Shown one piece after another: positions 1 to 54,763 of a DNA stretch of 64,000 nucleotides. The translations under genes and the position numbers were made by a program. The stretch is from Croceicoccus naphthovorans (GTDB lineage: Bacteria > Pseudomonadota > Alphaproteobacteria > Sphingomonadales > Sphingomonadaceae). The notes under the pieces are model-generated. The model was not told the origin of the DNA and did not search any database. It saw only the letters and a list, made by a program, of their open reading frames with translations. Each line of letters begins with the position of its first letter. Positions within the stretch are counted from its first letter, which is position 1. The stretch is taken from NCBI RefSeq assembly GCF_001028705.1, contig NZ_CP011770.1:933501-997500 (forward strand). Reading direction: 5' to 3'.

Positions 1-197
1 CCGCCGCCGCGCCGATGCTGATTCAGAAGGCCATTGTCGATGGCGATGTCGAGGAAGGGCTGATGGCCACCGGTTTGGTTGCTGGGCGGCTGGTCGATCT
101 GCCGACATGTGCCGAACTGGTCGATCGGATCGTAGGGCAGGCCACCGACCGACTGAACGCCATCACGGGCGGTTCGAATATTCAGGAGACTATGTGA
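1..197 (+). CDS. Nitronate monooxygenase family, C-terminal end (partial)
   Basis: The reading frame is open from the left edge (codons begin at base 3) and stops with TGA at 195-197. About 64 residues are visible. They match the end of FMN-dependent nitronate monooxygenases (2-nitropropane dioxygenases): a GDVEEGLMATG stretch followed by DLPTCAELVDRIVGQA, the conserved last strand and helix. These flavoproteins oxidise alkyl nitronates, although paralogues in catabolic clusters may use other substrates. The stop overlaps the next ATG by one base (TGATG), so it is the upstream member of the acyl-CoA catabolic operon. The FMN site lies outside the window, so activity cannot be judged. Confidence 0.75.
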   Translation, partial: AAAPMLIQKAIVDGDVEEGLMATGLVAGRLVDLPTCAELVDRIVGQATDRLNAITGGSNIQETM

Positions 198-8492: not shown

Positions 8493-9722
8493 TCAGTCCT
8501 TGAAACGCTTGTACTCCAGCCGGGCGATAGCGCGGTTGTGCACTTCGTCGGGGCCGTCGGCAAGCCGCAAGGACCGGGCCAGCGCATAGGCCGCGGCAAG
8601 CGGGAAACCATCGCTGACCCCGCCGCCGCCGTGGGCCTGAATGGCATCGTCGATCACTTTCAGCGCCAGTGCCGGACCTGCCACCTTGATCATCGCGATT
8701 TCGCGTTGGGCCGCTTTGTTGCCGACCTTGTCCATCATGTCCGCCGCCTTCAGGCAGAGCAGCCGCGTCATTTCGATCTGCGTGCGCGCCTCGGCGATGC
8801 GTTGTTCCCAGATCGACTGCTGGGCGATCGGCTTGCCGAACGCGACGCGCGACAGAAGGCGCGGGACCATGTGATCGATCGCCATTTCGGCAAGTCCGAT
8901 GGCGCGCATGCAGTGGTGAATGCGTCCGGGGCCCAATCTGCCCTGCGCAACCTCGAACCCGCGTCCTTCGCCCAGAACCATGTTGGAGACGGGCACGCGG
9001 GCATTGTCGAATGTAACCTCGCAGTGGCCATGCGGAGCATCGTCGTATCCAAAGACGGGCAAGGCGCGTCCGATGGTCACGCCAAGGGTGTCGACGGGAA
9101 CCAGCAACTGGCTGTGCTGGCGATGCCGCTCTGCGTCGGGATTACTGCGACCCAATACGATCATCAGCTTGCAACGCGGGTCGCCCGCGCCCGAAATCCA
9201 CCATTTGCGCCCGTTGACGACATAGTCGTCGCCATCGCGTTCAATCCGCGTTTCGATATTAGTGGCATCGGAACTGGCGACATCGGGCTCGGTCATTGCA
9301 AAGGCAGAGCGGATTTCGCCCGCCATCAAGGGAGCCAGCCATTGCGCCTTCTGTTCCGGCGTGCCGTAGCGATGGAGTACTTCCATATTGCCCGTATCGG
9401 GCGCCGAGCAGTTGAAGACCTCCGAAGCCCAAGGGATGCGTCCCATCTCCTCAGCACAAAGCGCGTAGTCCATGTTGCTAAGGCCCGCGCCGTGGAATTC
9501 GGGCGTGTCATGATCGGGTGAGGGCGGCAGGAACAGGTTCCAAAGCCCCGCCTCTTTCGCCTTGGCCTTCAAGTCCTCGATCACCGGCAGCGCGCGCCAT
9601 CGCGTCTCGCCATCGGCCAGCTCGGCACCATAACGATTTTGGGCTGGAACGACTTCTGCTTGCATGAAGGCGCGCACGCGGTCGCGCCATTCCTGCTGCT
9701 TGGGTGAAAGATCGAAGTCCAT
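8493..9722 (-). CDS. Acyl-CoA dehydrogenase (ACAD11-like core)
   Basis: A 409-residue acyl-CoA dehydrogenase. The frame is open further upstream, but the first 78 residues are low-quality. The ATG at 9722 has GGGAGC just before it and gives the standard N terminus ([12 protein letters not shown]). Motifs seen are [27 protein letters not shown] and [19 protein letters not shown]. The long insert and the [10 protein letters not shown] end are characteristic of the ACAD10/11 dehydrogenase domain. Together with the separate APH-like kinase at 5980-7035 it may do what the fused mammalian proteins do: eliminate a 4-phosphoryl group from 4-phosphoacyl-CoA. It is transcribed away from the flavin reductase at 9922. 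Confidence 0.87.
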
Positions 9723-9921: not shown

Positions 9922-10425
9922 ATGGACGAAGCCGCGAAGAAAACCGCGCTGCGCATGATTCCCTATGGCATCTATGTGCTGACCGCCAAGGACGCCGACG
10001 GCAAACCTTATGCTTCCACGATCAACTGGGTGACGCAGACTTCGTTCTCGCCGCCGTTGATCGCAATCGCGATGAAGGCGGATTCGGGCAGCTATGCCGC
10101 GCTGAAGACGACCGGATCGGCCGTGCTGAACGTTCTGGGCAAAGGCCAGCAGGGCGCGGCATTCACATTCTTCAAGCCCGCCGAACTGGCCGACGGCAAG
10201 CTTTCGGGAGAGGCGATCCACGATGCCGCCAACGGTGCGCCCGTGATCGAAAGCGCCGCCGCTGCGGTTGAGTGCAAGCTGGTGACGACAGTCGAACAGG
10301 GCGACCATCATGTGATGATCGTGGAAGTTACCGACGCCAAGGTCATGCGCGAGCCTGAAGGCCGCGCAGACGAGGCGGTTCTGGAGATGAAGGACCTTGG
10401 CGAGAAGGTCTTCTACGGCGGCTGA
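9922..10425 (+). CDS. Flavin reductase-like domain protein
   Basis: A 167-residue protein with the FMN-binding split-barrel fold of flavin reductases (HpaC/Flavin_Reduct family). The N-terminal strand pattern [20 protein letters not shown] and the following [16 protein letters not shown] are typical. A GGGAGAAACG ribosome site lies 5' of the ATG. Members supply reduced FMN to two-component monooxygenases or bind flavin or haem directly. A possible partner is the LLM-type flavoenzyme at 31350-32480. It is the first gene of a plus-strand run that continues with a thiolase, a RibBA-like protein, an amidohydrolase and a COQ4-like protein. Confidence 0.82.
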
Positions 10426-10591
10426 TACCTATTGTGCGCGTCGGGCATGGGCGATTTGCGCCCCGGCCCGGCGGCGCGATGCCGGATAGCGACACGCCTG
10501 ATCGTCCAACGGTATTGGGCAGCGCGCCGGGCAGACGATACCAGATCAGAACAAACGGGGCCGCAATCGGGCCGACGAAGTGGAGGATTTC

Positions 10592-11794
10592 TTGCGCGAG
10601 GCACTGATCGTTTCAACGGCACGGACACCCATAGGCAAGGCCTATCGCGGTGCATTCAACGATACGGAGGCACCTCGTCTTGCCGGGCACGCGGTCAGCC
10701 ATGCCGTCTCGCGGGCAGGCATCGATCCGGCGCGTGTCGAGGACGTGATCATGGGCTGCGCCGCTCAGCAGGGGACGCAGGGATACAACATCGGGCGTCT
10801 GGCCGCAGTGGCCGGTGGTTTGCCGGAAAGTGTTGCGGGCATGTCCGTGGACCGCCAGTGCGCGTCGGGCCTTATGGCTATCGCTATCGCGGCCAAACAG
10901 ATCATCGTCGACGGGATGGACTTCGCCATCGGCGGCGGGGTCGAATCGATAAGCCTGACGCAAAACAAGCACAAGAACAGCTATCGCAGCGTCTCGCAGG
11001 CCGTGTTGGAACACAGCCCCGAAATGTACATCCAGATGATCGAGACCGCCGAACTGGTTTCCGAACGCTATGGCGTCAGCCGTGAGGCGCAGGACGCCTA
11101 TGCCGCCCAAAGCCAGCAACGCTATGCCGAGGCGCTGGCAGAGGGCCGCTTTGCCGACGAGATCGTGCCGATGCCGTCGGTAAAGCAGGTGACCGACAAG
11201 GAAACAGGCGAGACTTCCGCCGTCGAAACGCTGCTGGAAAACGATGAAGGCGCGCGGGCCGGGACGACGGCGGAAAGCCTGAGCAAACTGAACCCGGTCT
11301 GGTCGGGCGGCAAACTGGTCCCGCAGGGGCATTTCGTGACTGCAGGCAACGCCAGCCAGCTTTCGGACGGCGCATCGGCATCGCTGCTGGTGGATGCGAA
11401 AGTGGCGGAAGCAGAAGGGCTGACGCCGCTGGGCGCCTATCGCGGAATCGCCGTCGCCGGGTGTCCACCTGAGGAAATGGGCATTGGCCCGATCTATGCC
11501 GTGCCGAAGCTGCTGCAGCAGCATGGCTTGTCGGTCGACGACATTGGCCTGTGGGAATTGAACGAGGCGTTTGCCGCGCAAGTCCTGCCGTGTCGAGACC
11601 GGCTGGGGATCCCGGACGAAAGGCTCAACGTCAGCGGCGGCGGTATCGCCATCGGCCACCCCTTCGGCATGTCGGGCGCGCGGCTGGTCGGTCATGCGCT
11701 GATCGAAGGGAAGCGTCGCGGCGCGCGGTACGTGGTCGTCACGATGTGCGTGGGCGGCGGCATGGGCGCGGCCGGATTGTTTGAGGTGTTGTGA
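10592..11794 (+). CDS. Acetyl-CoA C-acyltransferase (thiolase)
   Basis: A 400-residue degradative-type thiolase with all catalytic parts: nucleophilic Cys90 in DRQCASGL, the NEAFA loop, His356 in [11 protein letters not shown] and Cys386 in TMCVGGG. It should cleave 3-oxoacyl-CoA to acetyl-CoA and a shortened acyl-CoA. The TTG at 10592 is chosen because GGAGG lies at 10582-10586 with 5-base spacing and the product then starts [15 protein letters not shown] like its relatives. A GTG at 10580 in the same frame overlaps that ribosome site and is less likely. The TGA overlaps the ATG of the RibBA-like gene (TGATG). Confidence 0.9.
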
Positions 11795-12930
11795 TGGTGG
11801 AAACGATGGTCAGGCCGGTGGAAACGTCAATCGCGAGTGCCGAGGAAATCATCGACGATGCCCGCAACGGGCGGATGTTCATCCTTGCCGACGATGCTTC
11901 GCCCGAAAACGGTGCGCATCTGGTCATTCCTGCGCAAATGGGTACCCCCGCTGCGGTCAATTTCATGGCGCGTTATGGCAGGGGGCTGGTCTGTCTCGCC
12001 TTGACCCGGCGGCGTTCGGTCGAACTCGGGCTCGATATGCAGGCCCGCGAGGTGCGTGACGACGACAACGCCTATGCCGTGTCGATAGAGGCGGCGACGG
12101 GCGTTTCCACCGGCATTTCGGCGGCGGACCGGGCGCGGACGATCGCTGTCGCCATCGACGGCAACGCCACCGCGGACGATATCGTGACGCCGGGGCACAT
12201 GTTCCCGGTAATTGCCCGTGATGGCGGCGTGCTGGTGCGCGCCGGTGCGGCAGAGGCGGCCGTCGACATTGCGCGGCTTGCGGGCCTTAATCCTTCCGGG
12301 GTTATCTGTGCGATCATGCGTGAGGATGGCAATCTGGCGACACTGGAATGCCTTGGCGGTCTGGCGGCGGAGCATGACCTGCGCGTTGGCACGATCAGCG
12401 ACCTGATCGCCTATCGCCGTCGTTACGATCACCTCGTCAAACGCCGGGCCGAACTCGATTTCGTCAGTCAGTGGGGCGGCGAGTGGAAGGCGATCACCTT
12501 TCAGAACACCGTCAACAACACAGAGGCGATCGCCCTGATCAAAGGTCCGATCGACACCAGTGGCCCAGTGCATGTGCGTATGCATGTGCAAACCCCGTTC
12601 GCCGACGTGCTGGGCGAACTTCGTGAGGGGCATTCCAGCATGATCCAGCGTGCGATGACCCGCATTGGCGAGGTCGGCAGCGGGGTCGTGGTCCTGTTGT
12701 CCTCACCCGCGCCCGATCTTGCCAGCCGCGTGATCGAGGCGCGTCAGACGGGCCGCGAAGACAGCGCCGGGCGCCGCGTGGAACTGCGCGAATACGGAAT
12801 CGGGGCCCAGATCCTGAACGACCTGGGCATCACGCGGATCACGCTGCTGACCAATCGGTCGCACAATCTGGTGGCTCTTGCCGGACACGGGATCGCGATC
12901 GAGGGCGAGGATCCCCTGCCCCTGTCTTGA
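11794..12930 (+). CDS. RibBA-like protein with both active sites degenerate
   Basis: A 378-residue protein with the two-domain layout of RibBA: a DHBP-synthase-like domain (about 10-205) and a GTP-cyclohydrolase-II-like domain (about 215-375). In the first, the canonical DDEDRENEGD metal/catalytic motif reads DDASPENGAH (33-42); the conserved His of RGGHTEA is Ala (RAGAAEA, 149-155) and the catalytic Glu of CEIMxEDG is Ala (CAIMREDG). In the second, the three zinc cysteines of the C-LTGD-C-D-C region are Thr267, Glu278 and His280. Neither reaction of riboflavin synthesis looks possible. RibBX proteins are known to lose only the second activity. The coupled position between a thiolase and an amidohydrolase suggests a new catalytic, binding or regulatory use in this pathway. 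Confidence 0.82.
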   Translation: MVETMVRPVETSIASAEEIIDDARNGRMFILADDASPENGAHLVIPAQMGTPAAVNFMARYGRGLVCLALTRRRSVELGLDMQAREVRDDDNAYAVSIEAATGVSTGISAADRARTIAVAIDGNATADDIVTPGHMFPVIARDGGVLVRAGAAEAAVDIARLAGLNPSGVICAIMREDGNLATLECLGGLAAEHDLRVGTISDLIAYRRRYDHLVKRRAELDFVSQWGGEWKAITFQNTVNNTEAIALIKGPIDTSGPVHVRMHVQTPFADVLGELREGHSSMIQRAMTRIGEVGSGVVVLLSSPAPDLASRVIEARQTGREDSAGRRVELREYGIGAQILNDLGITRITLLTNRSHNLVALAGHGIAIEGEDPLPLS

Positions 12931-12993: not shown

Positions 12994-14733
12994 ATGGAAG
13001 ATATTTTGATCCGTGGCGGCACGATCGTTGACGGCACCGGAGAATCCGCGTTCAAGGGCGATATTCTGGTCCGCAACGGCAAGATCGAAACCATCGCCGA
13101 TAGCATCGAACCCAAGGGCGAAGAACGAGTGTACGATGCGACCGGTTGCGTGGTTTCGCCCGGTTTTATCGAACCGCACACCCACATGGACGCGGTGATG
13201 TGGTGGATGCCCAGCCTCGATCCGCTGCCCGGCTTCGGTGTCACAACTTCGGTCATCGGCAACTGCGGGTTTACGGCTGCGCCCGTTTCCCCCGATCCGA
13301 AGATCCGCGAAGAAATGGTCAATATCTTCACCTTTTTCGAAGAGGTGCCGAAGCAGCCCTTCCTCGACCGGTTGCCTTGGGACTGGAGCACCTGGCCCGA
13401 GTATCGCCATTCGATGGAGAAGAATTCCCCCGCGTCGACCAACATCGCCGCCTATGTCGGCCACATCGCGATCCGGCTTGCCGTGATGGGCATGGATGCG
13501 TGGGAACGCGTCGCGACGCCCGCCGAGGTCGCGAAGATGTGCGATCACCTGCAGAAGGCGATCGATGCCGGCGCGCTGGGCATGTCTTCGAACCTGATGG
13601 ACCATGACAGCAAGGACCGCCCGGTCCCCAGCCTTGTCGCCGACGATGCCGAATGGAGCGCGTTGATCGGCGTTCTGGCCGACAATCCGGGTAGCCAGCT
13701 TCAGGTTATCCTCGACACCTTCTTCCACCTGAAGGCCCCCGAACAAATGGAGCGCCTTGGCAATCTGTGCCGCGGGCGCGGCGTGCGCGTGCAGCTGGCA
13801 GGCGCGGGCGGCCTGCTCCGTTTCCAGGACGATATCCGCGACAAGATGTGGAAAATCACCGAGCGGCAGCGTGAGGAAGACCTCGACTTTTGGCCCAGCT
13901 TTGCGCACGTGCCGCCGACGACGGCGCTGAATTTCTTCAGCAGCTCCTCGTTCGCGCAGGCCAACGAATATGTCTGGCACGATGTCATTCAGGCCAAGAC
14001 CGAAGAGGAAAAGCTGGCACTGCTGCGCGACCCCGATTTCCGCGAACGCGCCCGCGACAGCTGGGATAACAAGGCATTCAAGCAGTCTTTGGTCTGCAAC
14101 CCGCAGTCGATGCTTCTGCTCGAGTCCGAGAACGGCACCGGGCCGCTGGGCCTCTCGCTCAAGGAGCTGGCTGAACAGCGCGGCGTGCATCCGTCCGATG
14201 CGCTGGCGGACTGGGTTCTCGACAACGGTATCAATTCCATCGTCAACCGTACGCCGCACGCGATGGCGCATGACCAGACCGTGGAAATGCTCAAGACCGA
14301 CAAGACCGTCGGATCGATTTCGGACGCGGGCGCGCATGGCCAGATGCTGTGCGGCGGTGGCGAGAATATCCTGCTGCTGACCGAGTTTCTCGACCGCAAG
14401 GACCTGACGCTGGAAGAGGCGGTCTATGCGCTGACCGGCAAGCAGGCGCTGCACTTCAACTTTGTCGATCGGGGCGTGTTGAAGGAAGGGCTGGCCGCCG
14501 ATATCGCCGTGTTCAACCTTGACGAGATCGAACCGCGCGACCTGAAGCGCGTGCACGATGTGCCCGATGGCAAGGGCGGCATGACCTGGCGTTTCAGCCG
14601 CGATGCCGCGCCGATGCGCCTGACGCTGGTCAACGGCGTGCCCACTTTCGACAAGGGTGCCTATACCGGCGAATGTCCGGGCAAGTTCGTCAGCCCGGAA
14701 ATCCGCCAATCGGCACAGACCGAGGCGGCCTGA
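12994..14733 (+). CDS. Amidohydrolase of the D-aminoacylase (N-acyl-D-amino-acid deacylase) family
   Basis: A 579-residue amidohydrolase-superfamily enzyme. The N-terminal strand sandwich (DILIRGGTIVDGTG) is followed by PGFIEPHTHMD, giving metal ligands His62 and His64. Later motifs include GNCGFT (about 90), a long middle insertion, and SDAGAHGQ, which carries the distal Asp. The family hydrolyses C-N bonds of N-acyl amino acids or cyclic amides, but in sphingomonads many members sit in catabolic clusters with unknown ring or amide substrates. It lies 63 bases after the RibBA-like gene and 41 bases before the COQ4-like gene, in the same direction. No signal peptide is seen, so it is cytoplasmic. 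Confidence 0.88.
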   Translation: MEDILIRGGTIVDGTGESAFKGDILVRNGKIETIADSIEPKGEERVYDATGCVVSPGFIEPHTHMDAVMWWMPSLDPLPGFGVTTSVIGNCGFTAAPVSPDPKIREEMVNIFTFFEEVPKQPFLDRLPWDWSTWPEYRHSMEKNSPASTNIAAYVGHIAIRLAVMGMDAWERVATPAEVAKMCDHLQKAIDAGALGMSSNLMDHDSKDRPVPSLVADDAEWSALIGVLADNPGSQLQVILDTFFHLKAPEQMERLGNLCRGRGVRVQLAGAGGLLRFQDDIRDKMWKITERQREEDLDFWPSFAHVPPTTALNFFSSSSFAQANEYVWHDVIQAKTEEEKLALLRDPDFRERARDSWDNKAFKQSLVCNPQSMLLLESENGTGPLGLSLKELAEQRGVHPSDALADWVLDNGINSIVNRTPHAMAHDQTVEMLKTDKTVGSISDAGAHGQMLCGGGENILLLTEFLDRKDLTLEEAVYALTGKQALHFNFVDRGVLKEGLAADIAVFNLDEIEPRDLKRVHDVPDGKGGMTWRFSRDAAPMRLTLVNGVPTFDKGAYTGECPGKFVSPEIRQSAQTEAA

Positions 14734-14774: not shown

Positions 14775-15650
14775 ATGACAAAGAACAAGGAAGAACTGCC
14801 CTACCTGATGCGGGCCTATGAACCGGTGAAGACCGAGAGCAGCCTGCTCGTCAGTTCGTCACCCTATCTGAACGATTACCGCATCCGTGAATGGGTGACG
14901 AGCCAGTGCCTGCGCCGCAATGGCAAGGACAATGCCCAGACATACGGCATTCCCATGCTGATTTCGGCAATGCGCGAAGTGCAGCCGCACGACCGTATCG
15001 ACGAATTGTTCAACGAGGCCCGGCGCGACTGGCCCGAGTTGGACAAGTGGCTGGACGAACGCTGGCTGTCGACGCTGCGGCGCGACGATATGGCTTCGTG
15101 TCCGGAAGGGTCGATCGGCGGCATCTGGTACAAGCAGCTGGCGTCGGCGAACATGGAAGTCGACATCATCGAAGGGTTCGAACCGCGCAGCAGTTTCGAA
15201 TACTTCTTCATGCGCGGCGTCCAAACGCATGACTTCATGCACATCCTTGCCGGGGGCGGGTTCAACTTCATCGGCGAGATCATTCCCGCCTATCTGAAGT
15301 ACGGTAACCTGTTCCGCCATCTCGACCCCGAACTGGCCGGATTGCTGAATGCGCAGAACACCTTGCTGACCGGCCCGATGTTCATCCGTGGCCCGTTGCA
15401 TTATCCGCAATTGTTCATGCGGATGTGGGATCTGGCCAATTACGCGATGGACGTGGGCCGCAATTCCGACCCGCTGTTCCTTCCGCGGTACGAGGATTGG
15501 CTGGACCTACCGCTGGAGGAAGCGCGCAAGAAGTTCGGCGTGCGCGGGGCGCGGACCATCGACACCACGCGCGAATCCGCGTTCTGGGACGAGACGGTCG
15601 ATACGTGGCAAGAAGACGAGACGATGGAAGAGGCTGTCGCAGCCGAATAG
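14775..15650 (+). CDS. COQ4-family protein
   Basis: A 291-residue protein with the COQ4 signature HDxxHx11E intact: His152, Asp153, His156 and Glu168, flanked by QTHDFMHILAGG and FIGEI. In eukaryotes and some bacteria COQ4 binds a metal through this motif and is required for ubiquinone synthesis, where it has been linked to oxidative decarboxylation of the C1 position of the ring. A copy inside a CoA-ester/amidohydrolase operon suggests similar chemistry on a catabolic intermediate, but this is inference. The ATG at 14775 follows a GAGG-rich stretch. A hairpin terminator follows about 25 bases after the stop. A housekeeping ubiquinone role cannot be excluded. Confidence 0.85.
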   Translation: MTKNKEELPYLMRAYEPVKTESSLLVSSSPYLNDYRIREWVTSQCLRRNGKDNAQTYGIPMLISAMREVQPHDRIDELFNEARRDWPELDKWLDERWLSTLRRDDMASCPEGSIGGIWYKQLASANMEVDIIEGFEPRSSFEYFFMRGVQTHDFMHILAGGGFNFIGEIIPAYLKYGNLFRHLDPELAGLLNAQNTLLTGPMFIRGPLHYPQLFMRMWDLANYAMDVGRNSDPLFLPRYEDWLDLPLEEARKKFGVRGARTIDTTRESAFWDETVDTWQEDETMEEAVAAE

Positions 15651-15711: not shown

Positions 15712-16641
15712 TTACCAGCCCTCGATCTCGGCGATGTTGCAGTCCTTTACGACCGCCATTGCGCGTTCGATCGCGTCCTTTTCGGCGGGCAGGCGCGGCG
15801 GCCGCGGATAGCCGCCGGGAAGTCCGAACTCACCCAGAACCGCCTTCGTAACCCGAATGCCGCCGTTGCCGTAAAGCGCCATGAAGAGGCGGAGCAGCGC
15901 GCCCCAGCGGTCGAGATAGAGCGCGTTGTCGCCAGCCCGTGCGGCATCGATCACGCTGCGGCAAAGTCTGGGCGCAAGGTTGGCTTCCGATGATAGGAAA
16001 CCCTGACCGCCCAGCGCCATCGCCATGGGGGCCTGATGCGGCCCGCCGACGCAGATGTCGATCCGGTCGCCCAGTGCGTCGATCAGGCTGCGCAGGTAAT
16101 TCGGATCCTGATGGCTGATGTTCAGACCGATCAGCTGGCTGTGATTTTCGAACAGGTCCACGATCACGTTGGCGGGAATGACATAGCCTACCGATTGATG
16201 CGTAGAGAGCACCAGCGGCATCGACGAATTGCGCAGCACTTCGCTGAAATAGGTCGATAGCTCGGTCGGAGTAGGTACGTGCCCGTGCCCGACATCCAGC
16301 GAATATATCTGTGCGGCGTCGACGCCCTTGGCCTCTGCCATATTGAGGAATTCGATCATCTGCCGCGCGGTTCGCGGCTCCACGCCCATCGCGCGGATCG
16401 GGGCCTTGCCCTTCAGTGTGCCGACCGCATGTTCGATCAGCATCGCGGTTTCGTCGAACGACATGGTGTAACCTTCGCCGCTGCCGCCACCACCGACATA
16501 GACGCCAACCCCGGCCTCTCCGATCCGGGTCAGGTGTGCTGCGAATGCATCGAGGTCGATTGAGCCATCTTCACGAAAAGGTGTGATGCTGATCGCGAAA
16601 GTCTGCAGCCGCGACAGGCGGTTTTCGGATGCCATTTGCAC
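15712..16641 (-). CDS. DapA-fold (DHDPS/NAL family) protein lacking the Schiff-base lysine
   Basis: A 309-residue TIM-barrel protein that aligns along its length with dihydrodipicolinate synthase/N-acetylneuraminate lyase. The GTP start at 16641 is a GTG supported by GGAAGGAA 5-6 bases upstream; an ATG two codons in is the alternative. The N-terminal TPFREDGSID and the GGSGEGYTMS loop are family-like. However, the lysine of the IVGIKEA strand is Asn174 (LIGLNIS), the catalytic Tyr of YNVP is Ser146 (LSTHQ), and the first Thr of TTGE is not conserved. A class I aldolase mechanism therefore looks impossible. It may act as a metal-dependent or non-covalent hydratase/aldolase. The divergent GntR gene is a likely regulator. 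Confidence 0.83.
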   Translation of the reverse strand: MQMASENRLSRLQTFAISITPFREDGSIDLDAFAAHLTRIGEAGVGVYVGGGGSGEGYTMSFDETAMLIEHAVGTLKGKAPIRAMGVEPRTARQMIEFLNMAEAKGVDAAQIYSLDVGHGHVPTPTELSTYFSEVLRNSSMPLVLSTHQSVGYVIPANVIVDLFENHSQLIGLNISHQDPNYLRSLIDALGDRIDICVGGPHQAPMAMALGGQGFLSSEANLAPRLCRSVIDAARAGDNALYLDRWGALLRLFMALYGNGGIRVTKAVLGEFGLPGGYPRPPRLPAEKDAIERAMAVVKDCNIAEIEGW

Positions 16642-16775: not shown

Positions 16776-17558
16776 ATGAGTGATGCCAGGAAACGTCGTT
16801 TGCGCCAGCCGCGCGTGGCCGAAATCGTGGCCAACGATCTGCGCGCCCGCATCCTTGGTGGCGACCTTTCCGACGGCGATCAGCTGCCTAAACAGGACGA
16901 GCTGATGAACGAATTCGGCGTCAGTCCGCCGGCCATTCGCGAAGCGTTTCGTATTCTGGAGACCGAGGGGCTGATCACCGTTCTGCGCGGCAATGTCGGG
17001 GGCGCGATCGTGCACCTGCCGCAGTCGGACAACGCTGCCTACATGCTCGGCCTTGTCCTGCAATCGCGGCAAGTTCCCCTCCTTGACCTGATAGAGGCGA
17101 TGCGCAGGCTGGAACCTGCCTGCGCGGCCCAAGCTGCTTTGCGTAGTGATCGTGAAAGCACCGTGCTTCCGAAACTTCGCAAGAACATCGATGACAGTTT
17201 CGCCGCCATCGACGATCCGAACACCTTCATAGCGTTGGCCCGCAACTTCCATACAGAACTAGTCAGCGAATGCGGCAATGCCACAATGGCATTGGTTGTC
17301 GGCGCGCTGGAACGACTGTGGTCGGCACAGGTGGGCAAACTGGCGCTGGCCAGGGCTGAGCACGGCACTTTCGCGGACCGTTCGGTTCGCCTTTCGCTGG
17401 CGCGCGAGCATGAGCGAATCTACCGCGCCATCGAAGACGGCGATGCCCAGTCCGCCGAACGGGCGATCCTTGAACACTACGCCGACGGTGGCGGAGAGCG
17501 GAAGCACGGGTTCGACACCTCGCTGACGGTGCGGGCATCGATGGACCAGCGGACCTGA
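16776..17558 (+). CDS. GntR-family transcriptional regulator (FadR/FCD type)
   Basis: A 260-residue regulator. The winged-helix domain (about 12-80) contains LPKQDELMNEFGVSPPAIREAFRILETEGLI, here named by its positions 37-68, which is the classic GntR helix-turn-helix. The C-terminal all-helical FCD domain (about 95-235) has the metal/effector histidines expected in ARNFHTELV and in the REHERIYRAI helix. FCD regulators bind organic acids or acyl-CoA and usually repress a nearby catabolic operon. It is divergent from the DapA-like gene and so probably controls it together with neighbouring genes. It converges on the nitroreductase gene with a 40-base gap. Confidence 0.88.
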   Translation: MSDARKRRLRQPRVAEIVANDLRARILGGDLSDGDQLPKQDELMNEFGVSPPAIREAFRILETEGLITVLRGNVGGAIVHLPQSDNAAYMLGLVLQSRQVPLLDLIEAMRRLEPACAAQAALRSDRESTVLPKLRKNIDDSFAAIDDPNTFIALARNFHTELVSECGNATMALVVGALERLWSAQVGKLALARAEHGTFADRSVRLSLAREHERIYRAIEDGDAQSAERAILEHYADGGGERKHGFDTSLTVRASMDQRT

Positions 17559-24019: not shown

Positions 24020-24819
24020 CGTACCAGAACATCGAATTCGCCGTCGACGGCGCAACGGCCCGGGTCACGTTGGCTCGTCCGGACAAGCTCAATCCGCTCG
24101 ACTGGTCCACGGTCAAGGAACTGAAGGCAGTCGTGGCCGAGATCGACGCGATGTCCGAAGTTCGCTTCGTGATCCTGACCGGCGCGGGCCGCAGCTTTTC
24201 CGCCGGGGGCGACCTTGACGGGTATATCCGCCTTTATGCAAATCCGGACGAATTCGCGGCATTCCTTGAAGACTTCTTCGCGATGCTGACGGGTATAGAG
24301 CAATCGTCCGCGATCTGGATCGCCGCCGTCAACGGCGTGACCGTCGCGGGTGGGCTGGAGCTGTTGCTGGCGTGCGACCTTGCGATCATGGGCAGCAGCG
24401 CGCAGATCGGCGACGGCCACCTGAATTTCGGACAGTTGCCGGGCGCTGGCGGTTCGCAACGCCTGCCCCGGGCGATAGGCCTGTTGCGGGCCAAGCACTT
24501 GATGCTGACCGGCGAACTGCTCGACGCCGAAACGTGTGAGCGCTGGGGGCTGGTTACGCGCGTGATCGCTGACGATGCCCTGATCGCCGCGGCGGAGGAA
24601 CTGGTCGCAGGTATGATGGGCAAAAGCCCGGTCGGTCTGCAGGACATGAAACGCCTCGCCAACATGACGCTCGACACTCCGTACAGCCAAGGGCTGCGCG
24701 ACGAGATCGCCTTTGTCCATCGCTATGCGACGACCGAACCGGATGCGACCGAAGGCCTGATGGCCTTCAAGGAAAAGCGCGAACCCCGTTTCGGCAAGCC
24801 CAAACCCCAGGAGCCATAA
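24016..24819 (+). CDS. Enoyl-CoA hydratase/isomerase (crotonase fold)
   Basis: A 267-residue crotonase-family enzyme, starting at an ATG that overlaps the ligase stop (ATGA). The oxyanion loop FSAGGDLDG (61-69) and AGGLELLLACD with Glu115 are conserved. The second hydratase glutamate, normally in PEIxLG, is replaced: the segment reads IGDGHLNFGQLPGAGG, with His135 there. So, as in the other crotonase of this window, only one of two glutamates remains, here the opposite one. It may hydrate an unusual substrate or act as an isomerase or retro-Claisen hydrolase. It is coupled to the thiolase-like gene (1-base overlap). Confidence 0.87.
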   Translation: MTYQNIEFAVDGATARVTLARPDKLNPLDWSTVKELKAVVAEIDAMSEVRFVILTGAGRSFSAGGDLDGYIRLYANPDEFAAFLEDFFAMLTGIEQSSAIWIAAVNGVTVAGGLELLLACDLAIMGSSAQIGDGHLNFGQLPGAGGSQRLPRAIGLLRAKHLMLTGELLDAETCERWGLVTRVIADDALIAAAEELVAGMMGKSPVGLQDMKRLANMTLDTPYSQGLRDEIAFVHRYATTEPDATEGLMAFKEKREPRFGKPKPQEP

Positions 24820-25976
24820 TGTTCAAGTTACGCGACAAGTACGCGATCGTCGGAATCGGCAACACCGACTATACCAAGGCATCGGGCCGCACCGTGCGCA
24901 GCCTTGCAACCGAGGCCAGCGTGAAGGCCATCCACGATGCCGGTCTGGAAGTGGCCGACATCGATGGCATGGTCAGCTTCAACTTCAACGACAGCGCCCC
25001 CGCGATGGGCGTCGCCACCGAGATGGGGATCGAAGACATTGGCTATGCCGTCGACTATGCGGCCGGCGGCAATGGCGCGAACCTGATCACACTGGCCGCC
25101 TGTGCCGCGATAGAGGCCGGGCTGGCCGAAACCGTTGTGTGCTTTCGCGCGATGAATGGCCGTTCGGGCTTTCGCCTTGGCGGCGGGCGCGACATGGCGG
25201 CTTATGGCGTAACCCAGTTCACCGCGCCGCTGGGCTGGATCACCTATCCGCAGGCGATGGCGATGTGGGCGCGTCGTCACATGATCGATTACGGCACTTC
25301 GCCCGAACACTGGGCCGAAATCGCCACGACGTTCCGTGACAACGCCATCCGCAATCCGCGCGCGATGCAACGCACGCCGATGACGAAGGACGATTACTTC
25401 AATTCTCGCCAAATCGTCGATCCGTTCCGCATGTACGACATCTGCCTTGAAAGCGACGGCGCCTGCGCGGTGGTCATCACCTCTGCAGAACGGGCGAAGG
25501 ATCTAAAGCACAAGCCGGTCTATATCATGGGCGGCGCCTATGGCGGCGGGCCCAGCCAAGGCGACGACCTGTTCGACGCGATCCGCTGGCCCAGTCATTC
25601 GCACAACTGCTTCAAATATATCGCCGACGACTTGTGGAACAGCGCGGGCGTCGGGCCGGAAGACGTCGATGTGGCGCAAATCTACGACTGCTTCACCTAT
25701 TCGGTGCTGATGGCTCTCGAAGGGCTGGGCTTCTGCAAGGAGGGCGAGGGCGGTCCGTTCGTCATGGGCGGGCGTATCGCCAAGGGTGGCGAGCTGCCGC
25801 TTAACACCGCCGGGGGGCTGTTGTCCGAGGCCTACATTCACGGGTTCAACCACGTGCTTGAAGCGGTGGAGCAATTGCGCGGCGATGCCGGCGACCGTCA
25901 GGTCGAAAACGCAAAAATCTGCCTGACGACCGCGGGCGCGATGACCTGTGGCAGCGCCATGGTGCTGAGGAACTGA
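24819..25976 (+). CDS. Thiolase-fold protein without the nucleophilic cysteine (Ltp/SCP2-type aldolase candidate)
   Basis: A 385-residue thiolase-superfamily protein of the lipid-transfer-protein (Ltp, SCP2-thiolase) class. At the position where true thiolases carry Cys-Ala-Ser-Gly, the sequence reads DYAAGGNGAN, so the acylation nucleophile is missing. The Tyr-rich IYDCFTYSVLMALE and the NTAGGLLSEAYIHG segment resemble Ltp2, which acts with a DUF35 partner as a retro-aldolase removing propionyl-CoA from steroid side chains. The DUF35 gene follows after one base, as in ltp2-chsH2 pairs. The predicted role is C-C cleavage of a beta-hydroxyacyl-CoA. This is inferred from family and context. Confidence 0.85.
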   Translation: MFKLRDKYAIVGIGNTDYTKASGRTVRSLATEASVKAIHDAGLEVADIDGMVSFNFNDSAPAMGVATEMGIEDIGYAVDYAAGGNGANLITLAACAAIEAGLAETVVCFRAMNGRSGFRLGGGRDMAAYGVTQFTAPLGWITYPQAMAMWARRHMIDYGTSPEHWAEIATTFRDNAIRNPRAMQRTPMTKDDYFNSRQIVDPFRMYDICLESDGACAVVITSAERAKDLKHKPVYIMGGAYGGGPSQGDDLFDAIRWPSHSHNCFKYIADDLWNSAGVGPEDVDVAQIYDCFTYSVLMALEGLGFCKEGEGGPFVMGGRIAKGGELPLNTAGGLLSEAYIHGFNHVLEAVEQLRGDAGDRQVENAKICLTTAGAMTCGSAMVLRN

Positions 25977-29558: not shown

Positions 29559-30566
29559 GTGAACACAATAAGCAAATTCGGTACGCGCTATCCCTTCCAC
29601 CCCTTTCCCACGGGGTGGTTTGCCGTTGGCTTTGTCGACGAACTGGCCGCCGGCGATATTCGGCCCCTGCGCTATTTCGACCGCGACCTCGTGCTGTTCC
29701 GGACAGAGAGCGGCAAGGCGGTCGTCACCGATGCGCATTGCCCACATCTTGGCGCACATCTGGGTTACGAAAGCTGGGTAGAGGGAGAGACGATCGTCTG
29801 CCCGTTCCACCAGTGGCGCTATGGTGTGGATGGGGCCTGCAAGTCGGTTCCTTTCGCGAAATCGATCCCGCCACGTGCGAAAGTGAATGTCTGGCCGACG
29901 GTAGAGCGCGGCAACATGATCCTGATCTGGCACGATCTTGCGGGGCGCGACCCGTTCTTTGACCTGCCCGATTGCGACGAGACGGGCCGTGTAGAGGGCA
30001 CCGGGTTTCATAAATTGCATGACGATTTCGGGTCGCCGCATCCGCAAGACGTTTTCGAAAACGGCGTGGACTTTGCGCATTTTCCCGGCGTCCATTCGAC
30101 GGGCCAGGCCGTCTCCGACGGTCCGATTGAGGCCGACGGACACCGCTTCTACAGCCCGGTCCGCATCCTGCCACCGGATTACGACGGGCCGACCGATATT
30201 AAGACAGTAGGCTCCACGGTCGAAAGCGAAGTGTTGGGCGGCGGGTTTTCGCGCGTGGAAAGCCGCACGCCGCACGCGCCGGGACTGACCACGATCTATT
30301 ACGTCTCGGTCACGCCGGTTTCAGCGGAACTCAGCCACTATTGGGTTCGGCAGACGATCCTGCGCGATCCCGATTGTACGCTGACCGACGATCAGGTCAT
30401 GGCTTTTGCCGATCTGGCTGCCAGGCATGGCGAGGCAGAGCAGTGGAGCGATGGCAAGATCTGGCCGCACAAGGCCTATGTCGAGAAGCCGCTACTGGGT
30501 GCCGCCGATGGGCCGATCCTGAAATACCGCGACTGGTACGCCCAGTACCATCCGGAAGTCGCCTGA
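29559..30566 (+). CDS. Rieske non-heme iron oxygenase, KshA-like
   Basis: A 335-residue oxygenase. The Rieske [2Fe-2S] cluster ligands are Cys61/His63 and Cys81/His84 (CPHLGAHLG and CPFHQW). The mononuclear iron site is NGVDFAHFPGVH, with His174 and His179. The size and the ADFAHF-type motif match 3-ketosteroid 9-alpha-hydroxylase oxygenase (KshA) and related single-chain oxygenases. The GTG at 29559 is chosen because GGAGAGG lies 4 bases upstream. A cognate ferredoxin reductase (KshB) is not in the window. It is the last gene of the operon and ends 10 bases before a converging SDR. The substrate is uncertain; steroid or terpenoid is plausible. Confidence 0.87.
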   Translation: MNTISKFGTRYPFHPFPTGWFAVGFVDELAAGDIRPLRYFDRDLVLFRTESGKAVVTDAHCPHLGAHLGYESWVEGETIVCPFHQWRYGVDGACKSVPFAKSIPPRAKVNVWPTVERGNMILIWHDLAGRDPFFDLPDCDETGRVEGTGFHKLHDDFGSPHPQDVFENGVDFAHFPGVHSTGQAVSDGPIEADGHRFYSPVRILPPDYDGPTDIKTVGSTVESEVLGGGFSRVESRTPHAPGLTTIYYVSVTPVSAELSHYWVRQTILRDPDCTLTDDQVMAFADLAARHGEAEQWSDGKIWPHKAYVEKPLLGAADGPILKYRDWYAQYHPEVA

Positions 30567-39613: not shown

Positions 39614-42600
39614 CTACTCCCGGTCAGTGGGGGGTGCACATGGGTCCGCCGTGGCGGGCGGAATGTCGTCGCAATACCAGCGGCGGGGCAGCGGTTTCTG
39701 CATCGGCCAGATCTCGTCCATCGTCTCGCCGTCGCGCAGGCGTCCTGCCTGCATCACCGCATCGATGGCCAGGGTGTTGCGGATGTCGTTAGTGGGATCG
39801 CGATCCAGAATGACCAGATCGGCGATCTTGCCCGGTTCAATAGAGCCAAGGTCCCCTTCTCGCCCGATGGCGCGGGCCGATCCGATGGTGGCGGCGTGCA
39901 GCACTTCTGCCGGGGTCATGCCGCCGATGACGTGGCCTTCCATTTCCCAATGAAAGCCAAGCCCCGGCACTTCGCCATGCGATCCGATGCCGACCAGCCC
40001 CCCGCGCCGCATCAGCCGCGCAGCACTCTCGCCGACGATCGGGAAGAAATAGGCGTCTAGCGGGCGATAAGTGCGGTTGCGCATCTTCATGTCGACGATA
40101 AAGCGCGGGGCAAAGCGGTTGAGCTTCGGATCGTCGGCCGGCGCGTCGCGGACGATGAAATAGTCCTGCCCCTGCGGCCCGCCGTTGCCGATCATCAGCG
40201 TGGTCGTATAGCCGACCCCGGTCTGCGTCATCAGGGACAGCACATCGTCGCGTAGCGGCTCGGCGGGCAGGGCGTGTTCGTGCCCGGCATAGCCGTCGAT
40301 GATCTGAGTCAGGTCCAGTTTCATCGCCAGCGCGCCCTCTGTCGTAGGGTATAGGCCAAGCTCTGCCGCGGCCTGCGCGATCCACTGGCGCACGCGGCGG
40401 TTGCCGGTGCGGTACATCTTGATGTTGCCGATGCGATAGTGATCGCGATAGCGGCGCAGCACCGCCTTGACCTGGTCGTAGGACGTGAAATCGTTGAACG
40501 AGAAGATCGCGGGACCCGTCGAAGGGATGCGCGAACCGATCATCTTGCCAGCCTCGATCGCGTCTTCATAGGCCAGCATATCGATGGTCAGCGTCGACGG
40601 GTCGAAGGATGTCGTGACGCCATAGGCAAGATTGGCAAGCGGGCCCCAGCTTTCGAAATCGAGCACTTGCCGCCGCACGTCGGCAACGTGGACGTGGGTT
40701 TCGATAAAGCCGGGGACGATCCACTTGCCGCTGACATCGCGGACTGTCGCGCCCGCCGGGATGGCAAAGCTTCCGCGTGGGCCGACCGCGACGATCCGGC
40801 CATCGGTGACGAGCAGGTCGGCGTTTTCGACCGGTGCTGCGGCCATCGTCAGGACTGTCGCGCCGCGCAGGACGATCGAACCATCCGCCCGGATACCGCG
40901 TGGCAACGTGACCTTGGCGCGGAACGCCTCACCTGCGACATCAGGCACATCGCCTGCCTTGCCATGGGCCAAGGCAATTCCGGGGCGCGGACGTTCGTAC
41001 CAAGTCGATCCCAGCGCCCAGCCGATGGTCTGGCCGTCCGCCGACCATTGCATGAAGTCTGCGCCCTCGTCGGTCAGGCGGCGGTGCATCAGGGTGGGGT
41101 CGGACAAGTCGATGTCGGTCCCCGTTTCGGGTAGCACGATCAGGCTGAGCTGCTGCGCATGACGGACCAGCGCCTCGCGGCCGTCGGGGCTGATGCGAAT
41201 GTCGTCCGCCTGTGCGCGCCCTTCCGCAAAGTACCAGCCGGGGCCTTGCACGCCGACGACCTTCTCAGCCTCGCCACCTGCAAGCGGCACGCGGTAGACA
41301 CCGTCGTAACGGTTGACGAGCACCGTACCGTCCGTCGCATCGAAATGTGGGGTGCCGCCGATGGAACCATTATCCACATCGCGCGCCGCCCCGCCCGCGA
41401 CGGGCATCGCGACCAGCGTGGCATCGCGCGTCGCGCCGAATTCCATATAGCTGTGCATGCGGGAGTCGTTGCTGGATCGCATGGCCAGCACTTGTGTCCC
41501 GTCGGGCGTGAATACGGGGGCGGTGTAGAACCCGGCTACATTCGATACGCGTCGATCCTGTCCCGAACCGAGGTTGCGCAGCCAGACATGCCCGGATTCG
41601 CGGGCGGTCCAACGCACGTAGGCCAGCGATGCGCCATCGGGCGACCAACTGGGCTGAAAACCCTCTCCGATTGCGACCGGCACGGCACCATCGCGCAGGT
41701 CCATCACATAGAGCGACCCGACCGCCGAAAACGCCAGCTTCGTCCCATCGGGCGATCGCGCCGGATCCTGGATAAGACGCGCTTCCAACGGCCCATCCTC
41801 CATTCGCGTGACGTGGCGGGTAGAGGGGCCGATCCCGATCTCTGACTCTACGTGGAATGGGATGTCGCGGGCCTTGCCGGTGTCAACGTCGATGCTGGCC
41901 AGCTTTCCGCCGGTGTTCACGATCAGCGCCTTGCCGTCGGGCGTAAAGCTGTGCCGGGGCAGCAGGTCGCGCCACGGCGTCGCCTGCAACTGGTCGTGCT
42001 GAACCGGATAGGACAGCCAGCGCGATTCCCCGGTCTGCGTATCGAGCAGCTTCAGCCCGCTTTCGCCCCGATCGCGCACGCCATATGCGATCAGGCGACC
42101 GTCCGGCGATACGGCAGGGCGGAACGCGGTGCCCAGCACGAGATCGGGTCGCGGGCTGCGCGGGGCCGAGACCAGCGTTTCCTCTGTGCCGCTGAAAAGA
42201 TCGCGGCGGATAATCGTCCATTCCGGGACGTCGCCGCGATCGCCGCCCAGATTGCCCGCGAAATAGAGATAGCGTCCGTCTGGCGAGGGAACCGCGCCCA
42301 GCGTGCTGCGCCATTGGTCGCGTGGCTGGTCGGGGCTGGATTTGATCGGTACGACGATATCGCCCGCGCCAGTCCGAGCGTCGAATTTCCAGAGTTCGAA
42401 CGCGACGCGGTCTGCGTGATAGCGCGAGGCGTAGATGCTCCTCCCGTCGGCCGACCACACCGGTGAAGTGAACACCGTGTTGCCGTCGTAAAGCGTCACC
42501 TGTCTCGGGTGACGGCCGTCGGCGCCGGCGACCCAGATGTTCTCAGCCCCCGAACGGTCGCTGACGAAGACGATGCGCTTGCCGTCGGGCGAAAACACCG

Positions 42601-42919
42601 GCTGTGAATCGAAAGCCATGCCGGTCAGGATCGGTCGAGCCTTGCCGCCCTTGCGGTCCAGCAGGTAGATATCGCCCAACATTTCGAAGACGATGGTCCT
42701 GCCATCCGGCGATATGTCGGGCGAGAGCCACGTGCCTTCGCGCACGTCGATCCTGGCGCTGCGGGCAGGCTGCATCGGTAGTGTCTGGCCCCGCTGCCCC
42801 ATTGCATCGACACTGCCTGCCGCGACCGTACCTTCCGGTGCCGGAACGTCGCCGGGATGGGCGAGGGCGGGCGTCGCGGCGATCAGTGCCAGCGTCGAGA
42901 TGAAGCACCGTGCGATCAT
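39614..42919 (-). CDS. Exported amidohydrolase fused to a TolB-like beta-propeller
   Basis: A 1101-residue secreted protein. After a signal peptide (ends ATPALA, about 20) the first two thirds consist of WD40/PD40-like repeats (SPDGRTIVF, SPDGKRIVF, SPDGRYLYF, SPDGTKLAF, SPDGASLAY, each with the SPDG turn), forming one or two propellers. The last third is an amidohydrolase domain with PGFIETHVHVAD, metal ligands in HVH, and a GSHGEVPGLG distal segment. Such proteins are annotated as prolidase-like or Tol-Pal-type amidohydrolases; they may act on peptides or cyclic dipeptides. The ATG overlaps the upstream stop by 4 bases. Confidence 0.88.
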   Translation of the reverse strand: MIARCFISTLALIAATPALAHPGDVPAPEGTVAAGSVDAMGQRGQTLPMQPARSARIDVREGTWLSPDISPDGRTIVFEMLGDIYLLDRKGGKARPILTGMAFDSQPVFSPDGKRIVFVSDRSGAENIWVAGADGRHPRQVTLYDGNTVFTSPVWSADGRSIYASRYHADRVAFELWKFDARTGAGDIVVPIKSSPDQPRDQWRSTLGAVPSPDGRYLYFAGNLGGDRGDVPEWTIIRRDLFSGTEETLVSAPRSPRPDLVLGTAFRPAVSPDGRLIAYGVRDRGESGLKLLDTQTGESRWLSYPVQHDQLQATPWRDLLPRHSFTPDGKALIVNTGGKLASIDVDTGKARDIPFHVESEIGIGPSTRHVTRMEDGPLEARLIQDPARSPDGTKLAFSAVGSLYVMDLRDGAVPVAIGEGFQPSWSPDGASLAYVRWTARESGHVWLRNLGSGQDRRVSNVAGFYTAPVFTPDGTQVLAMRSSNDSRMHSYMEFGATRDATLVAMPVAGGAARDVDNGSIGGTPHFDATDGTVLVNRYDGVYRVPLAGGEAEKVVGVQGPGWYFAEGRAQADDIRISPDGREALVRHAQQLSLIVLPETGTDIDLSDPTLMHRRLTDEGADFMQWSADGQTIGWALGSTWYERPRPGIALAHGKAGDVPDVAGEAFRAKVTLPRGIRADGSIVLRGATVLTMAAAPVENADLLVTDGRIVAVGPRGSFAIPAGATVRDVSGKWIVPGFIETHVHVADVRRQVLDFESWGPLANLAYGVTTSFDPSTLTIDMLAYEDAIEAGKMIGSRIPSTGPAIFSFNDFTSYDQVKAVLRRYRDHYRIGNIKMYRTGNRRVRQWIAQAAAELGLYPTTEGALAMKLDLTQIIDGYAGHEHALPAEPLRDDVLSLMTQTGVGYTTTLMIGNGGPQGQDYFIVRDAPADDPKLNRFAPRFIVDMKMRNRTYRPLDAYFFPIVGESAARLMRRGGLVGIGSHGEVPGLGFHWEMEGHVIGGMTPAEVLHAATIGSARAIGREGDLGSIEPGKIADLVILDRDPTNDIRNTLAIDAVMQAGRLRDGETMDEIWPMQKPLPRRWYCDDIPPATADPCAPPTDRE

Positions 42920-51771: not shown

Positions 51772-51776
51772 GTCGA

Positions 51777-52727
51777 TCAGCCCTTCGCCTCTGCGATCAC
51801 CCCGGCCAGCGTCCGCTCGGCAAGGGTGATCTTGTACTGGTTTTCCGCGGTCGGCTTGGCGCCCGCGAAGGCGCGTTCGACCACGGCCTTTGCGCCCTCG
51901 GGCAGCAGCGCCTCTGCTTCTTCCACGCGCCAGGGTTTGGCCGCGACCCCGCCGAACGCGACGCGGCCCTTGCCTTCATTGCCGATTACCGCGGCGACCG
52001 AGACCAGCGCAAACGCATAGGAACTGCGGTCGCGGACCTTGTGATAGAAATGCCGCCCACCGATCGACCTGGGCAATGTGACCGCCGTGATCAACTCGCC
52101 ATCTTGCAGGACATTGTCTCGCCACGGTTCATCGCCGGGCAGGCGGTGGAAGTCGGCAATAGCGATGCTGCGCCTAGAGCCGTCGGGCTGAACCGTCTCG
52201 ACCGTCGCGTCCAGCACGCGCAGCGCAACCGCCATGTCGCCGGGATAGGTCGCGATGCACAGGTCCGACGTGCCGATTACCGCCAGTTGCCGCGAAAACC
52301 CCTCCGCCGCGCCGCAGCCGGTTCCGGGCGCGCGTTTGTTGCAGGGCATGTTCGGGTCGTAGAAATAGGGACAGCGCGTGCGTTGTAGCAGGTTGCCCGC
52401 CGTCGTCGCCTTGTTACGCAATTGGCCCGATGCCCCGGCGACAATCGCGCGCGTCAGCACCGCGTAATCGCGCCGGATGCGCGAATCGGCGGCAAGCGCG
52501 GTATTGGAAACCAGCGCCCCGATCCGCACGCCGCCATCGTCGGTATCCTCAATCCGGTCGAGGGCGAGGTCCTGCACGTCGACAAGATGAGTCGGCGTTT
52601 CGATCTGCAATTTCATCAGGTCGAGCAGATTGGTCCCGCCCGCGATGAATTTCGCGCCTTCGTTCCCGCCAACCGCCGCTGCCGCCTGTTCGGGGGAGGT
52701 CGCGCGTTCGTAGGTAAAGGCCTTCAT
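51777..52727 (-). CDS. Molybdenum hydroxylase FAD subunit with extra 4Fe-4S motif (PaoB-like)
   Basis: A 316-residue FAD-binding subunit: [13 protein letters not shown] (FAD pyrophosphate loop) and [16 protein letters not shown]. Four cysteines at 119, 129, 138 and 157 (TRCPYF, MPCN, TGCGA, SDLCI) match the PaoB-type insertion that binds a [4Fe-4S] cluster, absent from most xanthine oxidase FAD subunits. The ATG at 52727 overlaps the stop of the 2Fe-2S gene by 4 bases. Confidence 0.9.
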
Positions 52728-53266
52728 GCCACATCCCCCGCTTCGGCGGCTTCGGCCATCGCGTCGTGGATATTGGCATAGGCCCCACAACGGCACAGGT
52801 TGCCGCTCATACGCTCGGCCATCTCGGCGCGGGTGGTGGGGACATCGGTGGTGAGATCATCGGTGACATAACTGGGCACACCGGCTTCGATCTCTTTCAG
52901 GACTGTCACCGCAGAGCAGATCTGCCCCGGCGTGCAATAGCCGCACTGATACCCGTCATGCTTGACGAACGCGGCCTGCATCGGGTGCAGGTTGTCCGGG
53001 CTGCCAATGCCTTCGATGGTCGTGACTTCGTCGCCCGAATGCTGGACAGCCAGAGAGAGGCAGGAATTGATCCGCTCTCTATTCACGATCACCGTGCAGG
53101 CCCCGCACTGGCCGTGATCACAACCCTTCTTCGTACCCGTCAGTCGCAGATGTTCGCGCAGGGCGTCCAGCAGGGTCGTGCGCGTATCCAGATCCAGCGA
53201 CACGTCCGCTCCGTTGACCGTCAGGTCGATGCGCATGCGGTTTGTCTGGGGCGAAGATGATGGCAT
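52724..53266 (-). CDS. Molybdenum hydroxylase 2Fe-2S subunit (PaoA-like)
   Basis: A 180-residue ferredoxin subunit. The N-terminal plant-type cluster is [11 protein letters not shown] with a later Cys in NSCL, and the second cluster is in [10 protein letters not shown] and GNLCRCG. E. coli PaoA carries a Tat signal and is periplasmic; here there is none, so this complex is probably cytoplasmic. The start may be the ATG at 53266 or at 53236 (MRIDLTVNG); no ribosome site is decisive. First gene of the three-gene operon. Confidence 0.88.
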
Positions 53267-53426
53267 CGGTTCTGGCGTCCTGTGGCAAGTGCACGGCAAA
53301 GGGCAATACGCCCGTTCGGTGCCGGGCGTGCTTGGGCAGCGGGTTATCTAGCCCACGGATCATTGCAATGCACAATCGCCTTTATCGATCCGACCGTTCG
53401 CCAGAGCGGATCGCGTGCGGGACCGA

Positions 53427-54761: not shown

Positions 54762-54763
54762 GT

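Follow-up and report, generated by a model that had tools for sequence, protein, structure and literature searches.

The window analysed here, a stretch of 64,000 nucleotides from Croceicoccus naphthovorans (contig NZ_CP011770.1), carries at positions 11794..12930 of the forward strand a gene for a RibBX-like putative pseudoenzyme, as indicated by its open frame and Pfam matches. The open frame spans 11791/11794-12930 (+) and codes for 378 aa counted from an ATG at 11794; this start codon shares one base with the stop codon of the upstream acyl-CoA thiolase gene (10580..11794, +; Pfam Thiolase_N/C) in the string TGATG (11792-11796). The intact codon structure and the overlap with the thiolase stop described in the first-pass annotation were therefore confirmed by a full-length open frame and a single shared base. 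Residues 1-212 (11794..12429, +; Pfam PF00926) form the RibB (DHBP synthase) half, in which the catalytic site is lost, and residues 213-378 (12430..12930, +; Pfam PF00925) form the zinc-less, GCHII-like X half. The Pfam scores of the protein were 214.7 bits for DHBP_synthase and 120.3 bits for GTP_cyclohydro2, both far over the cut-offs, and its score with the TIGR00506 RibB model was 170.2, under the cut-off of 177.45. The closest solved chain both by sequence and by fold was 6MNZ, titled RibBX from A. baumannii.

Upstream of the thiolase gene were identified a flavin reductase gene (9922..10425, +; Pfam Flavin_Reduct, with the HsaB model matched under its cut-off) and a gene for an acyl-CoA dehydrogenase, a FAD enzyme (8493..9722, -). 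Three conserved neighbours lie downstream: an amidohydrolase (Amidohydro_3; 12994..14733, +; Pfam), a COQ4-like protein (14775..15650, +; a weak Pfam Coq4 match of 30.8 bits) and a DapA-family aldolase or lyase (15712..16635, -; Pfam DHDPS). These are followed by a GntR/FCD regulator (16815..17558, +). The window also contains a KshA-like Rieske oxygenase (29559..30566, +; Pfam KshA_C; best chains 4qdc and 2zyl), a ChsH2-type OB protein, several acyl-CoA dehydrogenases of which one is closest to 6WY8 Tcur3481, and a thiolase-fold protein (24819..25976, +) with 6ok1 'Lipid-transfer protein' as its best PDB chain, which we take to be Ltp2-like from its match to 6OK1. The left end of the window (1..167, +) is the 3' end of a nitronate monooxygenase-like gene (G000:C1:932624-933667 in the host genome), a homologue at 66% of a gene of Novosphingobium sp. 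EMRT-2, and a CoA-transferase alpha-subunit homologue (55%) lies at G000:C1:930037-930912. The EMRT-2 CoA-transferase subunits were closest to 6CON and 6CO6, subunits of a type that we assume to be IpdAB, and the two host homologues are presumably IpdC-like (nitronate monooxygenase) and IpdA-like (alpha subunit). With KshA-, Ltp2- and IpdA/IpdC-like genes present, the cluster resembles those of steroid catabolism and looks like a steroid-type catabolic cluster with a putative steroid substrate. No RibB-like gene was found by term search, with terms that varied from paper to paper, in five papers on steroid degradation by sphingomonads (PMC7793797, PMC6895838, PMC12882949, PMC12175502 and PMC10653915).

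Three motifs of the RibB active site were altered. Residues 33-42 (11890..11919, +) read DDASPENGAH in place of DDEDRENEGD (R37P, E40G and D42H, with E38 kept), residues 149-155 (12238..12258, +) read RAGAAEA instead of RAGHTEA (Ala for both His and Thr, Arg retained), and an Ala codon (12310..12312, +) occupies the place of Glu in CEIMxxDG, giving CAIMREDG (residues 172-179). The alignment bore out the three substitutions that had been proposed for this gene, namely the rewritten DDEDRENEGD motif and the replacement by Ala of the His of RGGHTEA and of the Glu of CEIMxEDG. In the numbering of the enterobacterial RibB 3LQU, which served as the reference for substitutions, the changes were R37P, E40G, D42H, H153A, T154A and E174A, and E38, C66, H136 and R150 were kept; in the window protein the later site residues are numbered C67, H135 and R149 (kept) and A152, A153 and A173 (changed). 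For E174 a functional role in the RibB site was assumed. In ZtDHBPS, the phosphonate of an inhibitor is contacted by R34, R147, T151 and the backbone of H150, the metals are held by E35 and H150, and H133 and D39 contact substrate-like oxygens (PMC12268802). Placed on the window protein by an offset of three from our own alignment, Zt positions 34, 35, 39, 133, 147, 150 and 151 (R, E, D, H, R, H, T) read P, E, H, H, R, A, A, so that four of the seven metal and substrate residues of RibB are lost.

In the alignment to 4i14, the GCHII zinc stretch of the window protein reads VQTPFADVLGELREGH, and the three zinc cysteines of RibA (GTP cyclohydrolase II) are absent, as is characteristic of the X domain of RibBX. 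The same cysteines are missing from the other RibBX of the host (L002) and from the alphaproteobacterial rows displayed, and they are retained in two displayed deltaproteobacterial rows (L043 and L050) and in the RibA-like L003 of the host. The replacement of the zinc cysteines, previously read as part of what sets this protein apart, is thus real but not specific to it, being general and older in this RibBX group; a cysteine loss in the same event as the RibB changes was ruled out, since it is general in the alphaproteobacterial RibBX group. Both the RibB and the GCHII active sites were confirmed by alignment to be incomplete, and the protein is predicted to have no enzymatic activity. The earlier statement that both catalytic centres are erased holds as far as both sites are incomplete, but goes too far for the RibB site, which retains E38, C67, H135 and R149. 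The other RibBX of the host (L002/L183, G000:C1:1397944-1399026) has intact RibB motifs; since the host has this protein and the cysteine-bearing L003, the window gene would be dispensable for riboflavin synthesis as far as the sequence tells.

DDASPENGAH together with RAGAAEA was found in 5 of 188 aligned rows, which represent four distinct proteins, the query being identical to P0001. RibBX rows were extracted from loci by a pattern requiring D[AE]..EN, G[IV]GAQ and TG[IVL]S, which gave RibBX from 67 loci and none from the rest, missed L002 and biased the tally to typical motifs. In the protein database comparison (8000 candidates scored, best 120 listed), P0002, P0003 and P0004, entries from sources marked lgn or jgi, shared 93, 91 and 93% identity with the window protein among the matches listed. 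A sequencing or assembly artefact was ruled out by the identical substitutions in three other database proteins. No further copy with RibB loss was found among the 80 loci retained (best identity 57%), in 396 other genomes of the family (next best 69%, at most four candidates scored per genome) or in 13 further genomes belonging to the genus (best identity 57%).

Orthologues of the amidohydrolase at ≥70% were present in 8 of 397 family genomes, host included. Two more, in G402 (of the genus of G289) and on a plasmid of Novosphingobium sp. EMRT-2, brought the total to 10 records. RibBX lies immediately upstream of the amidohydrolase in nine of these (host, G133, G253, G380, G310, G289, G402, EMRT-2 and G012), and the G084 cluster has neither RibBX nor thiolase. 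The thiolase adjoins RibBX in the host, G133, G253, G380, G310 and EMRT-2; the cluster stretches of G289 and G402 showed no thiolase. The RibB site was intact in all seven fully readable other cluster copies, which amount to about five lineages because EMRT-2 matches G380 at ~99% and G402 closely resembles G289. The G012 copy, cut by the contig end, kept the His and Glu motifs and fell on a long branch outside the accessory clade. Of 22 amidohydrolase loci of more distant relationship, searched over ~1.5 kb of flank, one (G200) had an adjoining RibBX-like fragment, and each of G133, G253, G380, G310 and G289 had at least one additional RibBX match. The accessory RibBX of other sphingomonads (G133, the EMRT-2 plasmid and others) therefore share with the window protein the slot upstream of the amidohydrolase, the clade and 59-68% identity, but differ from it in the intact RibB site. 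A clade with the same substitutions, as had been anticipated, exists in the form of the four proteins, and a clade beside thiolase, amidohydrolase and COQ4 genes exists as well; the cluster as such does not go with the loss, however, as the seven other readable copies show. Their intact RibB indicates that RibBX entered the cluster first and that the loss came later in one lineage.

In a tree of 45 hand-picked rows, the seven intact cluster copies and the four proteins with the loss (the pseudo clade) grouped in one accessory clade (24 rows, support 100/98). The pseudo clade had a support of 100/100 and a stem of 0.88 versus 0.084 for its sister L113. In the RibB-only tree it was set apart from the rest on very long branches that gave it no reliable position, and in the X-only tree it stood beside P0005 (the L113 protein) with a stem of 0.39 versus 0.13. 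Relative-rate counts (window:sister; outgroups L114, L115, L116 and L117) were 45:8, 39:9, 45:7 and 44:5 for RibB and 12:11, 16:6, 20:8 and 17:2 for X, which was faster for three of the four outgroups, far less so than RibB. Among the five neighbour genes compared, only the amidohydrolase was clearly faster (46:20, 44:19, 38:21 and 37:20, about two-fold), an acceleration far below that of RibBX. The counts were 28:18, 23:19 and 24:19 for the thiolase (three outgroups), 15:14, 11:21, 10:16 and 14:14 for COQ4, 24:20, 24:20, 24:21 and 22:16 for DapA, and 15:8, 13:6 and 12:5 for GntR (three outgroups). Decay of the whole cluster was rejected, as there was no sign of it in the rates of these last four genes and the called cluster genes are open frames. 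In line with these counts, and with dS near saturation, the nonsynonymous distance in RibB was 0.284 between the window gene and L114 versus 0.126 between L113 and L114, and in X 0.323 versus 0.285; the dN/dS of the window gene against its sister was 0.16, likewise with dS near saturation.

Invariant positions were defined against hand-picked rows of 17 intact accessory and 8 other RibBX. Changes affected 21 of 113 such positions in RibB and 0 of 25 in X (Fisher p 0.014), X having few invariant positions. All 21 RibB changes were fixed in the four pseudo-clade proteins, and ligand residues were changed in 4 of 7 cases versus 17 of 106 for other invariant RibB positions (p 0.02). Inside the pseudo clade, 6 of the 138 invariant positions differed, compared with 47 of the 228 variable ones (p 6e-6). 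The ratio of RibB to X differences was 0.62-1.47 across the six pairs within this clade, compared to 0.19-1.03 in the listed intact accessory pairs. From these few pairs (six, among four proteins), the additional constraint normally seen on RibB seems to have been partly relaxed, with both halves still held. Full-length frames were present in all four proteins, and the results would fit selection for X, selection inside the clade being judged from protein sequences.

AlphaFold2 was run with the same 44 sequences, taken from the proteins found and giving a shallow alignment, for the window protein and its intact sister P0005. The mean pLDDT was 69.5 for the window protein versus 80.5 for P0005. 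As averages of ten-residue blocks, in which confidence is not stability, the RibB half (blocks 2-21) went from 84 in P0005 to 63 in the window protein and X (blocks 22-38) was about unchanged (80 and 79).

The fusion of a DHBP synthase domain to a GCHII-like domain (Pfam; 6MNZ fold) and the position inside the accessory RibBX clade of the 45-row tree place the window protein in common ancestry with RibBX. The intact RibB active site that RibBX requires was not found, so the protein was filed as a variant derived from RibBX and not as a functional RibBX. It has the same two-domain build, RibB with a zinc-less RibA-like X, as RibBX of A. baumannii (6MNZ) and S. oneidensis; known RibBX retain RibB activity according to PMC10012899, whereas here the RibB site is lost too. 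The duplicated RibBA of Arabidopsis, of which RIBA3 lost DHBPS and RIBA2 lost GCHII (PMC3509567), are alike in each lacking one activity. RIBA2 and RIBA3 nevertheless keep one activity each, while the window protein has neither site complete and its gene lies in a catabolic operon. It would thus be a new RibBX variant in which both halves are non-catalytic, and for which a non-catalytic role is plausible.

Comparison of 15 RibBX loci showed four second copies (L118, L178, L179 and L181) directly 3' of genes resembling those for thiolase, ECH and acyl-CoA dehydrogenase; these copies have intact RibB motifs and lie in a cluster type that differs from that of the window. FadD- and LLM-like matches were found at L171, ECH- and TonB-like matches at L172 and a flavin-reductase-like match at L173, and the remaining eight loci (L174-L177, L180 and L182-L184) had no match to the window genes except RibBX. 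L118 fell outside the accessory clade in the 45-row tree. RibBX seems to have come to lie beside catabolic genes rich in flavoenzymes on more than one occasion, and such repetition would fit a role in flavin supply.

RibBX copies outside the accessory clade frequently had an HTH-like N-terminal extension of ~55-60 aa (ARAAGLHANSLRDC..WNPTAETL). The extension was seen in 14 of the 35 loci displayed (L002/L183, L004, L005, L007, L093, L103, L173-L177, L180, L182 and L184) and in no cluster copy. Pfam HTH models matched it under the cut-off in two of five proteins; a DNA-binding RibBX would merit attention.

The explanation favoured here, to which we give about an even chance, is that an accessory flavin-supply RibBX became a doubly non-catalytic pseudoenzyme that is retained for its X half and/or as a pairing partner of Rib proteins. 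The accessory paralogue, resident in the steroid-type catabolic cluster, would originally have made DHBP, a riboflavin precursor, most likely supplementing flavin for the many flavoenzymes of the cluster. A burst of change would have destroyed the RibB active site in the window lineage, and the protein would have been retained with a conserved X and a RibB domain reduced to a non-catalytic scaffold. It would most likely have no chemistry of its own and would act through X and/or through assembly with the intact RibBX or other Rib proteins of the host; the partner and the flavin role are our suggestion, the proposed effect being that flavin supply is tuned while the operon is on. In PMC10012899, RibX is described as a domain whose function is unknown but which in some way regulates the RibB joined to it, and X of S. 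oneidensis RibBX is stated to affect the RibB domain by an unknown mechanism. RibBA of S. meliloti was reported to interact with lumazine synthases in a two-hybrid assay and to function in flavin secretion (PMC9478397). The S. oneidensis effect and the S. meliloti two-hybrid result provide some precedent for a regulatory or scaffold role. Against the retention of X with a non-catalytic RibB stand the faster rate of X itself for three of four outgroups and its few invariant positions, the two-fold faster amidohydrolase, the G084 cluster that is entirely without RibBX, and the constraint on RibB inside the clade, by which X is perhaps not the sole useful part.

The accelerated change on the stem, the second, intact RibBX of the host and the lack of RibBX in the related G084 cluster would also be expected if the accessory copy was superfluous beside another sufficient one and drifted slowly while being carried in the operon. 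We consider such decay unlikely, though a serious contender, because all four proteins are full-length and share the 21 fixed changes, variation within the clade avoids invariant positions (p 6e-6), no invariant position of X was changed (0 of 25) and the dN/dS to the sister is 0.16, albeit with dS near saturation. A burst of change followed by conservation is also what a new enzyme would leave, with the emptied RibB pocket rebuilt for a pathway substrate such as a CoA ester or a ring intermediate. The gene adjoins pathway enzymes, E38, H135, R149 and C67 are retained, and D42H provides a new histidine, so that E38, His42, C67 and H135 could possibly be working residues. The recruitment as a CoA-ester or ring enzyme put forward in the first-pass annotation was not supported, as no new set of catalytic residues was recognised and, apart from D42H, the changes at the named site residues were to small or non-polar ones (P, G, A, A, A). 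R37P, E40G, H153A, T154A and E174A remove functional groups, the metal-binding His is lost together with part of the phosphate site, the model confidence is lower in the RibB half, and other clusters hold intact copies in the same slot, all of which makes a rebuilt pocket quite improbable.

The two remaining readings fare worse. X or the empty pocket may bind flavin or a nucleotide and signal to the operon as a flavin/GTP sensor, for which the GCHII ancestry of X speaks, and the HTH-like N-terminus frequent outside the accessory clade suggests that the family may have regulatory members; this extension is missing from the accessory copies, however, and we regard a sensor as very unlikely. Still more remote, to the point of being nearly discounted, is a protein that still acts as a DHBP synthase with unusual residues: the Pfam score far over the cut-off and the retained E38, H135, R149 and C67 would agree with it, but the metal-binding His, two of the phosphate contacts, D42, E40 and E174 are gone and the TIGR00506 score (170.2) is under the cut-off of 177.45.

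That the window gene represents a RibBX that lost its enzymatic half by natural change within a steroid operon and persists as a non-catalytic protein is proposed tentatively. If true, RibX would have a selectable role of its own, for example in coordinating the supply of flavin or the assembly of flavoenzymes with the degradation of steroids. A lineage that keeps X without RibB chemistry would allow X to be studied apart from the enzyme. In addition, the cluster points to flavin-precursor genes built into flavoenzyme-rich catabolic operons of sphingomonads. Neither an X kept without RibB chemistry nor flavin-precursor genes in catabolic operons were found in the accessible parts of the literature searched, which included few subscription journals.

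Finally, other genes of the window included a 1101-aa protein with WD40-like PD40 repeats and a fused amidohydrolase domain at 39614-42919 (-) and a transposase gene (Pfam DDE_Tnp_1_4) at 58997-60346 (+). The stretch at 49597-55789 (-) holds a molybdopterin dehydrogenase large subunit (49597-51771), then a PhoX-type phosphatase (53427-54761) and a phytase (54764-55789).
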